A stretch of DNA of 64,000 nt from positions 20,752 through 84,751 of the forward strand of contig NZ_JASCRR010000016.1 of assembly GCF_030010215.1 (NCBI RefSeq), read 5' to 3'. The notes beneath the pieces were generated by a model. It ran no database searches, was not told the origin of the DNA, and worked only from the letters and a program-made list of their open reading frames with translations. Source of the DNA: Tianweitania sp. UT-5YL-CI-8 (lineage in GTDB: Bacteria > Pseudomonadota > Alphaproteobacteria > Rhizobiales > Rhizobiaceae). This document shows, piece by piece, positions 20,071 to 24,772 of the stretch. A program made the position numbers and the translations under genes. Numbering within the stretch: the first letter of the stretch is position 1; every line of letters starts with the position of its first letter.

Positions 20071-20541
20071 TTATGCCGAGCTGGTGAGATCAGGCAGAAA
20101 AGCGGCGATCCACTCCTTGGGAAACCGCCGCGGCCGGCCATTTTCGCCGATGATGGCGGCCTCGACCCGCGCCTCGATCAAGAGTTCGTCGCCACGCCGG
20201 ATCTGCTGGCCCATGACGATGCGAGCGCCCGAAATGTCGAGCGTCCGCGTATCCACGGTCAAGATATCGTCGATGCGGGCCGGACTTCGAAAATCGATCT
20301 CCATCCGCCTGACGATCCAGACGATCTTTTCGCCATGCTTGCCATCGGCCAGTTCGGTGTGATGCACTCCAGCCAGCCGCAGGAAATCCGATCGGCCGCG
20401 TTCGAGAAATTCGAGATAGCGCGCATGATAGACGACGCCGGAAAAATCCGTATCGGCGTAATACACCCGCGCCATCAGGCGATGTCCGGACGGCGTCAGG
20501 GCACCAGAGAGGCTGGCTTCCAGGGAGGCGTCCATAGTCAC
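20071..20541 (-). CDS. ybgC: Acyl-CoA thioesterase YbgC
   Basis: A 156-residue hotdog-fold thioesterase. The catalytic Asp lies in [30 protein letters not shown], the 4-hydroxybenzoyl-CoA thioesterase motif. YbgC hydrolyses short acyl-CoA or acyl-ACP esters and interacts with lipid synthesis in bacteria where it neighbours tol-pal, as here. Its ATG overlaps the ruvB stop (ATGA), so it is the tail of the ruv operon; tolQ begins 259 bp further. Confidence 0.93.
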
Positions 20542-21578
20542 TCCTCTTCCTGGAACAGGTTGATCTGCTGCTGGGCGATCTCGTTCGGCGCGTCGAGGCC
20601 TAGATGCCGCCAGGCGTTGGCCGTCAGCACCCGGCCGCGCGGCGTGCGCTGGATGAAACCCTGCTGGATCAGATAGGGCTCGATGATGTCCTCGATTGCG
20701 TCGCGCGGCTCGGAAAGACCTGCCGCGATCGTTTCGATGCCGACGGGGCCGCCGCCGAAATTCATCGCGATCATCGACAGATAGCGCCGGTCGAGCTGGT
20801 CGAGACCAAGCGCATCGACCTCCAGTCGCTGCAGCGCCTCGTCGGCTGCCTTGCGGTCGACGATCGGCGCGTTGGCAACCGAGGCGAAGTCGCGCACCCT
20901 GCGCAACAGACGCCCGGCGATACGCGGCGTGCCGCGAGAGCGGCGAGCGATTTCCAGCGCACCGTCGTCCGACATCGGCAGGTTCATGATGCGGGCGCCG
21001 CGCCGCACGATCAGTTCGAGTTCTTCCACGGTATAGAAGTTGAGCCGGACCGGAATGCCGAACCGGTCGCGCAACGGGTTGGTCAGGAGGCCGAGCCGCG
21101 TGGTGGCGGCGACCAGGGTGAACTTCGCCAAGTCTATCTTGACCGAACGCGCTGCCGGCCCCTCCCCGATGATCAGGTCGAGCTGATAATCCTCCATTGC
21201 GGGATACAGGATTTCCTCCACTGCCGGGCTCAGCCGGTGGATCTCGTCGATGAACAGCACGTCGCGCTCTTCGAGATTGGTCAGGAGTGCTGCGAGGTCT
21301 CCTGCCTTGGCGATCACCGGGCCAGAGGTGGAGCGGAAATTAACGCCGAGTTCGCGCGCCATGATCTGCGCCAGCGTCGTCTTGCCTAGACCTGGTGGGC
21401 CTACGAACAGCACATGGTCGAGCGCCTCGCCCCGCCCCTTTGCCGCCTCGATGAAGATACGCAGATTGGCCCGCGCCGCAGCCTGGCCGACGAAATCGTC
21501 CAGCATCTGCGGTCGCAGCGACGAATCGATGTCCTCGCCGCGCTTTTCCGGGGTGATGAGGCGGGGGGAAAGGCTCAC
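20538..21578 (-). CDS. ruvB: Holliday junction branch-migration ATPase RuvB
   Basis: The hexameric motor that, with RuvA, moves Holliday junctions. The start is a GTG at 21576-21578 that overlaps the stop of the vapC-type toxin gene as GTGA. This gives 346 residues beginning [16 protein letters not shown], exactly the normal RuvB N terminus; the longer ATG frame from 21644 lies inside the toxin gene. Walker A is GPPGLGKTT, Walker B FIDEIHRL, sensor 1 AATTR, sensor 2 [14 protein letters not shown], and the C-terminal winged helix ends [16 protein letters not shown]. Coupling to the toxin gene makes RuvB translation depend on the inserted module. Confidence 0.95.
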
Positions 21579-21973
21579 GAAAGAAGTTCCATCGAAGAAA
21601 GCAATCGCGCCGAGCGCTTGTCGAACGTCACGACCGTATCGCATTTCGCAGCTTCACACGACCATGCCACAAGAGCGTCCGGCAGGTCGGATGCGGTAAT
21701 GTCCGCCCTTTCCAAAAAGCTGCGCAGTTTCTCGCCATGCTCGAAACGGAATTCTGCGCTTTGCGTCATTGTACGAACCGCGGCCAGGATGTTGTCGCCA
21801 TCGTAATGGAGCCGCCTTTTCAACAGCCAGAGGAGTTCCACCAGCGAGACGGCGCTGACAAAAGCCGGGCTTCGGGCCGTTCGCCGTGCAAAGAAAGCGC
21901 GAGATTTCGCGCACTGCTCAGGATCGTCATCGACCAGCAGCCTCAGGAGAATGTTAGTGTCGACGCCGATCAC
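21575..21973 (-). CDS. PIN-domain toxin (VapC type), copy 1, inserted between ruvA and ruvB
   Basis: A 132-residue PIN-domain ribonuclease. The first acidic residue is in [16 protein letters not shown], the later ones around [22 protein letters not shown] and [11 protein letters not shown]. VapC toxins cleave initiator tRNA or rRNA when freed from their antitoxin. The antitoxin gene upstream overlaps by ATGA, and the stop overlaps the ruvB GTG. It looks intact: all four expected acidic positions appear to be present. The placement inside the ruv operon is unusual. Confidence 0.88.
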
Positions 21974-22248
21974 GTTTCGCGCTCCCTTGCCTCAAACTCG
22001 GCCCATTCCTCAGCGACCGCATCCGCGATTGCATCGTCGAATTCCTCGATTGCCAAGCTCTTCCCCGAAGGCGGCTTTCCAAGAATACCCGCAAGGTCTA
22101 TGGCCCTGATTTTTCGAGGACGGACATAGGTTCGCCCTCCCTCCTCAACAAATTCGACGGTATCGCCGGCTTTGAGATCGTGTCTCAGGCGAACTTCCTT
22201 AGGGATGGTAATCTGACCTTTTGAGGTGATCGTCGCCAAAACGCTCAT
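21970..22248 (-). CDS. AbrB/MazE-type antitoxin, copy 1
   Basis: A 92-residue antitoxin. The N-terminal swapped-hairpin DNA-binding domain is SVLATITSKGQITIPKEVRLRHDLKAGDTVEFVEEG. The C-terminal tail (GKSLAIEEFDDAIADAVAEEW) is the toxin-neutralising arm. It lies directly upstream of its PIN toxin (ATGA overlap) and 62 bp after ruvA. A promoter and inverted repeat in that gap support separate, autoregulated expression. Confidence 0.88.
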   Translation of the reverse strand: MSVLATITSKGQITIPKEVRLRHDLKAGDTVEFVEEGGRTYVRPRKIRAIDLAGILGKPPSGKSLAIEEFDDAIADAVAEEWAEFEARERET

Positions 22249-22267
22249 GTCTTACACCTGAATTTTT

Positions 22268-22306
22268 CTTACTTATAATAATAGTAAGGAATTTTACTGT
22301 ACGCAA
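22268..22306 (-). promoter_or_regulatory. Promoter and operator of toxin-antitoxin pair 1
   Basis: Read on the minus strand: -35 TTGCGT (22306-22301), 17-bp spacer, -10 TATTAT (22283-22278). A 6-bp inverted repeat, CTTACT at 22268-22273 and AGTAAG at 22283-22288, brackets the -10 and is AT-rich compared with its surroundings. This is where an AbrB-type antitoxin would bind to repress its own operon. ruvA ends at 22311, so the promoter lies in the ruvA-vapB gap. Confidence 0.6.
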
Positions 22307-22310
22307 CACT

Positions 22311-22928
22311 TCACCGCGCCAGCTCCTTCAGCCCGAGCCGGATGAGCTGGGAGGAATCGGCATCCTCGCCTGCAGTTTTCAGGGCCGATGCGATGGCGTT
22401 CGCGGCGATGTCGCGGGAGTAGCCGAGATTGACCAGCGCCGACACAGCATCGGCTATCGGTGCCGGCGCCACGCCCTCGCCGAGTTCCTGCTTGAGCCCT
22501 ATGGTGCCCGTCGCCTCGCCCGTGAAGGCCGGCGCCTTGGTCTTGAGTTCGGTGACGATGCGCTCCGCCACTTTCTTGCCGACTCCAGGCGCGCGGCTGA
22601 CCATGGCGATGTCGCGCAGCGCAATAGCATTGGCCAGTTCAGGCGGTGTCAGCGTCGACAGCACGGCCAGTGCCACCTTGGCTCCGACGCCCTGGACGTT
22701 GTTCAAAAGCAGCCGGAACCATTCGCGCTCGAGCTGCGACTGGAATCCATAGAGCCGGATCATGTCCTCGCGCACATAGGTTTCGATGAAAAGCACTACC
22801 GCCTCGCCGGCATGCATCGTTGCCAGCGTGCGCGTCGAGCAAAACGCGACATAACCCACGCCGTGCACGTCGACGACGCATGAGTCCTCGCCGATCTCGT
22901 CGACCGTGCCTTTAAGCTTGCCGATCAT
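22311..22928 (-). CDS. ruvA: Holliday junction DNA-binding protein RuvA
   Basis: A 205-residue protein that forms tetramers around four-way junctions and loads RuvB. It starts [25 protein letters not shown], the canonical RuvA domain I. Two helix-hairpin-helix motifs follow ([17 protein letters not shown] and [15 protein letters not shown]), then a linker and the RuvB-binding domain III ([20 protein letters not shown]). The ATG at 22926-22928 begins 7 bp after the stop of the second PIN toxin, and its AGG ribosome site lies just inside the end of that toxin gene (TGAGGTTCAG). The longer frame to 22961 is rejected. Confidence 0.95.
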
Positions 22929-22935
22929 CTGAACC

Positions 22936-23349
22936 TCATGAGTGGCTATCGGGAGAAACAAGCTCCACCTGCGGGAAATAGGTGCGGTAGCGGCGGGTAT
23001 CGCGCGTCATGAGGCGATGCCCGGCCACGGTGGCATGCGCGCCGATTAGAAAATCCGGCAAGGTCTGCGCACGTCCGCCGCCTCTGGCACGGTAGTCGCG
23101 ATGCGCCCAACCCGCGATCGGCGCAGCGTCCGCTGGTATATTCTCGAACGTCCACAATGCGGAGACGAAGACAGCGTTGAAGTTTTCCAACGTTTTGAAC
23201 GCGTGTGCGACCTCGGCCGCGATGACGACGTTGTAGACCAACCCGCCACGCGACAACGCACTGCCGATTGCGCCTCTAGCCCAATCCTTCCAAGGCGATT
23301 CAGGCTCCAGAAGGTCGATGATGATGTTGGAGTCAATCAGCGTAGCCAT
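22936..23349 (-). CDS. PIN-domain toxin (VapC type), copy 2, inserted between ruvC and ruvA
   Basis: A 137-residue PIN-domain protein: [17 protein letters not shown] contains the first Asp, [14 protein letters not shown] a conserved acidic Glu, and [30 protein letters not shown] the C-terminal acidic cluster. It differs from copy 1 in sequence, so the two modules are independent arrivals rather than a duplication. It overlaps its antitoxin gene by 17 bp and ends 7 bp before ruvA. Confidence 0.87.
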
Positions 23350-23593
23350 CGCCGCCTCGGGTCAGGGTCATGATCTCGTCCGAGGTGAGGCCGCCGTCAC
23401 TTGTGCCTTCCACTTTGGCGAACCAATCCTCCAGGCTGCGGTGCAAAACGCTTTCCCGCCCGCCCGGTACCCTTACAAGTTCTACGACGCCATCCGCACG
23501 CTGGACGAAATCGACCTCCGTGCCCGGCATGATGCCGAGCTTGAGCCGGATGTTCCGGGGAATCGTAACCTGGCCTTTTTCCGTCACGCGCAT
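23333..23593 (-). CDS. AbrB/MazE-type antitoxin, copy 2
   Basis: An 86-residue antitoxin with a SpoVT/AbrB domain at the N terminus (MRVTEKGQVTIPRNIRLKLGIMPGTEVDFVQ). The C-terminal part (RSLEDWFAKVEGTSDGGLTSDEIMTLTRG) binds the toxin. It is followed by its PIN toxin with a 17-bp overlap. A perfect 9-bp inverted repeat ends immediately before the ATG. Confidence 0.88.
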   Translation of the reverse strand: MRVTEKGQVTIPRNIRLKLGIMPGTEVDFVQRADGVVELVRVPGGRESVLHRSLEDWFAKVEGTSDGGLTSDEIMTLTRGGDGYAD

Positions 23594-23641
23594 GGTAATA
23601 CCTCTGCGGTATTACCTATCCGACGACCGTGAACAAGTCAA
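23594..23641 (-). promoter_or_regulatory. Promoter and palindromic operator of toxin-antitoxin pair 2
   Basis: GGTAATACC at 23594-23602 and GGTATTACC at 23608-23616 form a perfect 9-bp inverted repeat with a 5-bp centre, touching the antitoxin ATG and covering its AGAGG ribosome site. Upstream on the minus strand, TTGACT (23641-23636) and TAGGTA (23618-23613) are 17 bp apart, so the -10 overlaps the palindrome. This fits antitoxin autorepression. Confidence 0.65.
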
Positions 23642-23657
23642 GAACATGCCGACAGCT

Positions 23658-24173
23658 TCATCCTGCCAGTTCGGCCCTGAGCCGGTAGGCCGGGCTTTGT
23701 CGGTGATGTGCATGGCAGATGGCGATAGCCAGTGCGTCGGCGGCATCCTCGGTATCGAAGCTCGCCTTGGGCATCAGTACCTTGACCATCATGACGATCT
23801 GCTTCTTGTCGCCGTGACCGACGCCGATCACCGCCTTCTTCACCGCATTTGGCGCGTATTCGGCAACCGTCAGGCCCGCCAGTGCCGGCACCAGCATGGC
23901 GATGCCCCGCGCCTGCCCGAGCTTCAAGGTCGCCGCGGCGTCGCGATTGACGAAAGTGGCTTCGACAGCCGCTTCATGCGGCTTCAGCGAATGGATGACT
24001 TCGGAAAGCCCGTCATGCAACTGGCACAGCCGCGTCGCCAGGCTCATCTTTTCATCGGACCGGACCGTGCCGGCAGCGACGAAACGCAACGAGTTCCCCA
24101 GACTTTCCACAACGCCCCAACCGGTGCGGCGCAGGCCGGGATCGATGCCGATGATACGAATCGCTTCCGTCAT
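23658..24173 (-). CDS. ruvC: Holliday junction resolvase RuvC
   Basis: A 171-residue endonuclease that cuts Holliday junctions symmetrically. The RNase-H-fold active site is visible: Asp in [14 protein letters not shown], Glu in AAVEATFVN, and the C-terminal acidic pair in [21 protein letters not shown]. It is first in the ruvC-TA-ruvA-TA-ruvB-ybgC string. The DUF1465/rcdA gene ends 59 bp upstream. Confidence 0.95.
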
Positions 24174-24232
24174 GCCCGAACCTTATCTTTCGAGCGCCAC
24201 GAAGCCAGCGAAATGTGAACAAACCGAAAACG

Positions 24233-24772
24233 TCAGCCGCGGCCGAAAGCCGTGTTCAGCAGCGTGATCTGGTCGGAAACCGGGTTCTGCGACCGGTGCG
24301 GAAACGGCGTGAACCCGTTGCCGTAAATTTCGTCGTCCATGCGCCGCACCAGCGATTGCAGACGGAGCGAACGGCGGACGAGGCCGATGAAGTCTTCGGG
24401 CAACTCGCCCCAGCCGAGCGCGTCTTCATGCGCCGATGCGGTATCGAGCCGAACCTTGGCCTTCTCGGACGCAACCTGGTCGCGGGTCATTTCGCCAGAA
24501 TTGGCGGCACGCTGAAGCAACAGCCAGGAGGCAACCTGCATGAGCCGCGTGGTCAGCCGCATCGATTCCGCCGCATACAGCGTCGCCGCGTTGCGCGACA
24601 GCCGCTTGGCTTCGGCGCGACCCTTGCCGTCGAGATATTCGGCTGCATTCTCAACCAGCCCCATGCCCTCTTCATAAAGCGGCTTGAAGGATTGCGAAAA
24701 CACGCGATGCTCGGCCAGCTTGATCGTGTTCGGGCTCGTGGCGAAAGGCTCGTTCATCAAAAATTCCTGCAT
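24233..24772 (-). CDS. rcdA: DUF1465 protein, RcdA-like ClpXP adaptor
   Basis: A 179-residue protein (174 if the second ATG, at 24755-24757, is used). The sequence LAEHRVFSQSFKPLYEEGMGLVENAAEYLDGKGR, with SRNAATLYAAESMRLTTRLMQVASWLL, is the DUF1465 signature. In Caulobacter the family member RcdA helps deliver the cell-cycle regulator CtrA and other substrates to ClpXP at the cell pole. The mostly helical composition fits a three-helix-bundle adaptor. It is a single gene between ruvC and a 213-bp gene-free stretch (24773-24985). Confidence 0.85.
   Translation of the reverse strand: MQEFLMNEPFATSPNTIKLAEHRVFSQSFKPLYEEGMGLVENAAEYLDGKGRAEAKRLSRNAATLYAAESMRLTTRLMQVASWLLLQRAANSGEMTRDQVASEKAKVRLDTASAHEDALGWGELPEDFIGLVRRSLRLQSLVRRMDDEIYGNGFTPFPHRSQNPVSDQITLLNTAFGRG

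Follow-up and report, generated by a model that had tools for sequence, protein, structure and literature searches.

The ruvCAB operon of Tianweitania sp. UT-5YL-CI-8, as it appears in the 64,000-nucleotide (nt) window analyzed here (genome G000, contig C8 in our labeling), carries a VapBC-type toxin-antitoxin (TA) pair in each of its two gene joints. In the sampled sequences, the toxins of each joint appear to form a separate lineage. The upstream pair is likely a promoter cassette that responds to SOS induction, is tuned by its antitoxin, and feeds ruvA and, by way of ruvA, ruvB. We hold this combined reading to be probable, short of confident. It draws on features visible in the sequences themselves, namely gene order, overlapping stops and starts, palindromes, a LexA-like box, a toxin tree with one branch per joint, flickering occupancy, and decay scars.

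The locus lies on the minus strand in the order ruvC, AbrB1-PIN1, ruvA, AbrB2-PIN2, ruvB, and ybgC. All coordinates refer to the window, and the ruvC/ruvA and ruvA/ruvB junctions are termed the CA and AB joints. The gene ruvC (23658..24173; Pfam PF02075, 146.5 bits) encodes the crossover junction endonuclease of 171 amino acids (aa). It is followed by the antitoxin gene AbrB1 (23333..23593; 86 aa, VapB/MazE-type) and the toxin gene PIN1 (22936..23349; 137 aa, VapC-type). The PIN1 stop precedes the ATG of ruvA (22311..22928; 205 aa; TIGR00084, 190.1 bits; Pfam RuvA_N, HHH_5, and RuvA_C) by 7 nt, and GAGG (22934..22937), the likely ruvA ribosome-binding site, overlaps that stop codon. In the AB joint, AbrB2 (21970..22248; 92 aa) leads into PIN2 (21575..21973; 132 aa), whose stop shares GTGA (21575..21578) with the start of ruvB (20538..21578; 346 aa; NF000868, 516.2 bits; Pfam RuvB_N, 265.1 bits). 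The Pfam matches across the ruv locus (RuvC, RuvA, RuvB, MazE_antitoxin, and PIN) all exceed curated cut-offs. The original prediction, made from this DNA alone, had read the same order on one strand with insertions exact at the gene joints, and the coordinates together with the Pfam and NCBIfam matches bear out both points.

Both pairs are VapBC-type modules by domain content and layout, with toxin activity predicted. The antitoxin gene comes first and overlaps the toxin gene by 17 nt in the CA module and 4 nt in the AB module. AbrB1 (PF04014, 33.9 bits; TIGR01439, 41.3 bits) and AbrB2 (PF04014, MazE_antitoxin, 47.6 bits) score above cut-off as AbrB/MazE-type DNA-binding antitoxins. PIN1 and PIN2 reach 28.6 and 47.5 bits against PF01850, for which the Pfam cut-off is 23.6 bits. 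Conserved acidic residues, which we take to be the catalytic active site, are retained across relatives: D6, E46, D99, and D117 in 36, 37, 37, and 37 of 37 CA toxins, and D5, E46, D99, and D118 in 39, 39, 36, and 36 of 39 AB toxins. A stricter naming is disfavored by the NCBIfam VapC equivalog and subfamily models, whose cut-offs both toxins miss (PIN1, 20.3 of 80 bits for NF047959; PIN2, 21.4 of 73.6 bits for TIGR00028). The name VapC-type is therefore used, on the strength of the Pfam match and the active-site residues. Across the whole G000 genome, 21 PIN-domain matches were found, 20 of them above cut-off, and two of the 21 lie in ruvCAB. A look-up of solved structures by sequence returned nothing useful.

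Numerous other genera likewise have AbrB-PIN modules at these two joints, an arrangement beyond chance in the genomes compared. The search set comprised 121 genomes covering the family's 109 genera, and the ruv locus was readable in 118. The remaining three were G002 (without a RuvA match), G110 (a RuvA match of 35 residues only), and G009. A joint was scored as empty when it spanned at most 130 nt and held neither an AbrB nor a PIN open reading frame (ORF). On this basis, 40 of 113 readable CA joints contain a complete or partial module, 61 are empty, and 12 hold other sequence; the corresponding counts for 116 readable AB joints are 40, 55, and 21. Empty sites thus exist among relatives at both joints, so that the uniform order without empty sites, named in the original prediction as weakening its capture/coupling idea, does not hold. 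Filling of the two joints is associated above chance (36 loci with neither, 12 AB only, 13 CA only, 20 both; Fisher p 0.0024, for genomes that are not independent). On the Ruv protein tree, at least 27 state changes are required per joint (101 CA and 95 AB rows scored), and the many empty joints indicate that occupancy flickers. Among the modules, the toxin stop and ruv start share a 4-nt overlap in 32 of 39 AB and 16 of 36 CA cases. Some joints hold other inserts. The CA joints of L164, L165, and L178 carry a minus-strand ORF that by eye resembles a sodium/bile-acid symporter, with an exact LexA-like box kept near ruvA. The AB joint of L055 holds a 1.4 kb insert with one ORF resembling an RNA ligase by eye, and that of L195 has an ORF between ruvA and ruvB that looks, again by eye, radical-SAM-like.

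Joint specificity is seen in the toxin tree, which combines 75 toxins of the ruv joints with 31 non-ruv PIN toxins (usable PIN sequences came from 31 of 40 non-ruv loci). The 36 CA toxins fall on one side of a single branch (SH-aLRT, the Shimodaira-Hasegawa-like approximate likelihood ratio test, 99). The 39 AB toxins fall on one side of another, with a support of 74; their monophyly is weak, and the non-ruv PIN of L008 sits in the same open fork, which tells against a lineage exclusive to that joint. None of 500 shuffles gave values as low as the observed grouping for either joint. PIN1 and PIN2 of the window lie on different branches, so that the two pairs are distinct in sequence, as had been predicted. 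Eight non-ruv pairs, fetched as PIN1 relatives, adjoin the CA branch. A search of the order returned 23 loci outside the family, in nine of which the PIN1 match stands directly before ruvA (L399-L403, L407-L409, and L412), with ruvC beyond it in eight. For PIN2, two of 27 new loci outside G000, L428 and L429 from a single other family, lie at the AB joint. A class search reaching beyond the order gave 16 loci (L470-L485), none of them at ruv. Since relatives of both toxins recur at the same joints in other families, the ruv address is old within the order as sampled. Two long-resident, joint-specific toxin lineages are thus the best reading of the tree, which disfavors recent independent captures and with them the capture idea put forward originally.

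Two further comparisons of the toxins were less informative. Classes from iterated hidden Markov models (HMMs) looked clean at first (CA, 89 of 89 PIN1; AB, 79 of 79 PIN2), with models trained on the same sequences. They later became mixed: once both models had reached 210 hits, the CA joint had 54 PIN1 and 58 PIN2, and the AB joint 12 and 86. Because of this mixing, the tree was used for lineage assignment instead. Agreement between the toxin trees and the Ruv trees is no more than weak (Mantel r 0.37, p 0.0005, and r 0.35, p 0.004), with 4 of 31 and 3 of 35 splits in common. As the toxins are short, such weak agreement is hard to read as transfer alone.

The regulatory part of the reading centers on the start of the CA module. 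It opens with GTTCTTGACTTGTTC (23631..23645), in which TTGACT, the likely -35 element of the module, is enclosed within GTTC-N7-GTTC. This motif, which the original prediction had overlooked, is given as the alphaproteobacterial LexA box in PMC3323433 and as the Caulobacter LexA box in PMC9578287. Of the 40 filled CA joints, 39 have the exact box, as do 3 of 61 empty joints and 6 of the 12 that hold other sequence; at AB joints, the counts are 1 of 40, 0 of 55, and 0 of 21. Chance alone would yield about one exact box over the filled joints of either kind, and the gene stretches contain none (0 of 111 for ruvC, 0 of 118 for ruvA). The pattern holds in an enlarged set of 297 loci (217 G loci and 80 named, 20 of the latter with a ruvA identical to that of a G locus). 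Among the 288 readable loci, the box is present in 108 of 109 modules and 5 of 157 empty joints. In CA modules of other families, all nine have the box within one mismatch, two of them exactly, where shuffles give 0.44. With ruvC and ruvA more than 60 nt apart, 48 of 61 cases show the box, against 0 of 52 at 60 nt or less.

With one mismatch allowed, the 15-mer was found in three genomes at one ruv site each, plus one extra site in one genome; the backwards 15-mer, used as a control, gave a single match, in G000. Exact repeats of the box within the window number three, no more than chance, so the LexA-box case rests on genome comparison. G000 encodes a lexA gene scoring above cut-off, and in six of six genomes the exact box lies upstream of lexA. 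From this we infer that the host LexA uses the GTTC-N7-GTTC box.

Palindromes precede both antitoxin genes. GGTAATACC-N5-GGTATTACC (23594..23616) abuts the AbrB1 ATG and is a likely antitoxin operator. The CTTAC...GTAAG palindrome CTTACTATTATTATAAGTAAG (22268..22288) is likewise a likely operator for AbrB2. By pattern, the AbrB1 type is present at 24 of 39 CA modules, the GTAAG/CTTAC type at 10, and neither at five; the CTTAC...GTAAG element is found at 26 of 39 AB modules. The coupling of repair to toxin expression foreseen by the original prediction agrees with the joined stops and starts, but the link is likelier to be transcriptional than translational alone, because of these palindromes and the consensus LexA box before the CA antitoxin gene. 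The genes are tightly spaced. A terminator scan gave seven terminator-like sites against a shuffle mean of 4.7 (standard deviation 2.3), near chance, and at this level none of the seven falls at the PIN1/ruvA or PIN2/ruvB joints. One of the seven from this near-chance scan is a stem between ruvC and AbrB1 (23649-23669, minus strand); if real, it would set the stretch from the module to ruvA apart as its own unit.

Taken together, these elements suggest a mechanism in which LexA would occupy the CA box until DNA is damaged, and AbrB1 would also hold the CA promoter, damping it through its own palindrome. Once damage had lifted LexA, transcription would cross AbrB1-PIN1 and reach ruvA, perhaps also ruvB. 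AbrB2 would exert the same damping before ruvB, without LexA. Breakdown of the antitoxins under stress would raise ruvAB transcription, and toxin present while antitoxin is short may slow growth as junctions are processed. Modules probably persist by descent and by replacement through recombination in the ruv flanks, and some would be lost by internal deletions. A wider proposal is possible, and we offer it tentatively: across Hyphomicrobiales, two dedicated VapBC lineages may have been adopted as regulatory cassettes of Holliday-junction repair. The CA module would be an SOS switch, with its antitoxin setting how much RuvAB is made and its RNase toxin linking the arrest of growth to the processing of junctions, and the AB module would tune RuvB separately. 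Toxin-antitoxin pairings would be exchanged among strains, with the LexA box and the coupled stop and start retained.

Several observations weigh against the favored reading. About half of the joints lack a module. A ruvC-ruvA gap of 60 nt or below has little space for a box and a promoter, which partly explains the lack of the box at that spacing. The first 90 nt of AB modules contain no exact LexA box (0 of 39), and two come within one mismatch. A sigma-70 scan detected no minus-strand promoter at either module, its lone hit being on the plus strand and near chance, and the -10 of the CA module is poor. A near-consensus box, GTTT-N7-GTTC (24217..24231, minus strand), lies 58 nt upstream of ruvC. 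Within one mismatch, such a ruvC promoter box is found in 50 of 60 empty-CA and 30 of 38 filled-CA loci (shuffles, 14% and 11%). The GTTT-N7-GTTC variant accounts for 66 of 90 loci with a near box (within 200 nt before ruvC, spread set), and the exact box lies upstream of ruvC in 3 of 39 filled, 1 of 60 empty, and 1 of 11 other loci. SOS control of the operon thus does not need the module, and the proposition that the module brings such control to ruv was rejected as too strong, as the promoter box is there with or without it. For alphaproteobacteria, PMC3323433 had already reported putative LexA sites at the promoter of ruvCAB.

Among the alternatives, the one that survives best treats the modules as selfish residents: addiction genes at a safe operon address, where loss can hurt a ruv gene, with an SOS box that aids only their own spread or persistence and does nothing for RuvAB. 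Three features of turnover at the joints fit this account: the patchy occupancy, with the 27 changes per joint noted above; two complete CA modules in tandem in L232, from different sub-branches; and the divergent toxins of close strain pairs described below. Apart from these, close strains (ruvA 91-96% identical) differ in having filled or empty joints. Five loci (L016, L024, L025, L028, and L057) have a lone antitoxin relic before a module, and at some AB joints the antitoxin alone remains. In 125 overlapping pairs of strains that share a ruvA identity of 90-99.5% and each have a CA module, toxin N-terminal halves are less than 75% identical in 35 (25 loci); of these, 30 have ruvC ends at least 85% identical and 16 have toxin C-terminal ends at least 80% identical. 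This pattern resembles replacement in situ. When 60 of the 125 pairs were put to a mosaic test, median identities were 0.80-0.92, with no sharp general pattern. In L074 and L095, a near copy of the initial 16 nt of ruvA (15/16 and 14/16) lies just upstream of ruvA, at the 3' edge of the CA module, as if the module had arrived with a piece of ruvA; as a general arrival mark this was discarded, being seen only in these two loci.

Decay scars also agree with selfish residence. Among joints without an intact toxin in the 217 G loci, toxin-like last residues persist at 6 of 139 CA and 8 of 142 AB joints (shuffles, 0.00 and 0.02), and in 13 of these 14 scarred joints the toxin tail still overlaps the ruv start. 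With 14 of 281 scarred, most empty joints show no toxin-tail scar. The idea that ruv translation anchors the TA genes, put forward in the original prediction, therefore stands in part: toxin ends are tied to ruv starts and scars retain the overlap, but loss is tolerated, as over half of CA and nearly half of AB joints are empty. The distribution of the box argues against a purely selfish role. It is tied to ruv residence: when one mismatch is allowed, it is still missing from all 30 distinct relatives of AbrB1-PIN1 located outside ruv, and from all 12 of a first, hand-picked set. In the enlarged set it is kept in six of six relic loci (four genomes) without an intact toxin, and of 16 joints with other sequence, 9 have it ahead of ruvA, which points to use by ruvA. 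We therefore consider selfish residence alone unlikely.

A second alternative holds that the 15-mer is merely a strong -35 element (TTGACT) and no LexA site, each module simply being transcribed from a promoter of its own that AbrB controls. Within the family the inner TTGACTT hardly varies, as expected of a -35, and LexA binding is a prediction. Yet the outer GTTC halves are conserved too, other-family modules keep GTT(T/C/G)-N7-GTTC with other spacers, the exact motif precedes lexA in all six genomes, and it matches the LexA box given in PMC3323433 and PMC9578287. This makes a plain -35 improbable. A hotspot at which ordinary mobile VapBC modules were captured many times independently would suit the filled and empty sites in close strains and the tandem or relic-plus-module joints, but is very improbable given one branch per joint and the good matches that recur at the same joint in other families of the order.

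The dual-module cassette has partial precedents. In Rhizobium leguminosarum 3841, RL3987-RL3990 (vapB-vapC-ruvA-ruvB) likewise place a VapBC pair directly upstream of ruvA with overlapping ORFs (PMC11406972), the only such paper found, so that this arrangement is already in print for one strain. That strain differs in having a single pair, and the accessible parts of the paper are silent on recurrence, a second joint, joint-specific lineages, and a LexA box. Some outside support for the proposed mechanism comes from this strain, as insertions in vapB, vapC, ruvA, and ruvB all belong to its core attachment set, where ruvC is not named; in addition, Caulobacter ruvCAB is described as upregulated on damage (PMC9578287). 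Two considerations temper the R. leguminosarum result: a later-stage table puts vapB in another class than vapC, ruvA, and ruvB, and polar effects could explain the common set. SOS-controlled type II TA systems, as proposed here, are already known from the Escherichia coli dinB-yafN-yafO-yafP operon, where the TA pair lies in an operon with a DNA polymerase gene, and from Caulobacter HigAB (PMC9578287). Each of these involves one TA system, compared with one per ruvCAB gene joint here. The toxins of the dinB operon and HigAB belong to families other than those of PIN1 and PIN2. Gene insertions in ruvCAB and a LexA site before ruvAB are known as well: according to PMC3323433, Vibrionaceae ruvAB can have a LexA site separate from that of ruvC, and some species have one or two genes inserted in the operon. 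These are not called TA modules in the portions available, which mention no TA promoter containing a LexA site. A VapC toxin of a related rhizobium, VapC10 of Sinorhizobium meliloti, targets tRNA-Ser according to the title of PMC10945364, whose title and opening abstract lines say nothing of the ruv operon. A literature search, largely without full texts, found no report of recurrence, joint-specific lineages, flickering occupancy, a LexA box borne by the CA module, or coupled decay scars.

If correct, the favored reading would mean that, in many genera, a TA system is bound to a central machine of recombination repair through its location, its promoter, and its translation. Controls are provided by nature in the form of empty sites, scars, and swapped alleles, which make the old question of the role of chromosomal TA systems directly testable in laboratory rhizobia. 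Caution is advised, since part of what is seen as a ruvAB phenotype in these species may stem from the TA modules.

At the downstream end of the locus, ybgC (20071..20541, minus strand; TIGR02799, 156.9 bits) encodes a thioesterase and overlaps the ruvB stop. Directly upstream of ruvC, at 24233-24772, lies a gene for an RcdA protease adaptor (NF051867, 206.6 bits), found in the same place in several relatives. Antitoxins are often degraded by proteases. RuvA is 98% identical in a congener genome, and likewise 98% identical in Oryzicola mucosus ROOL2 (L039), the nearest named record found.

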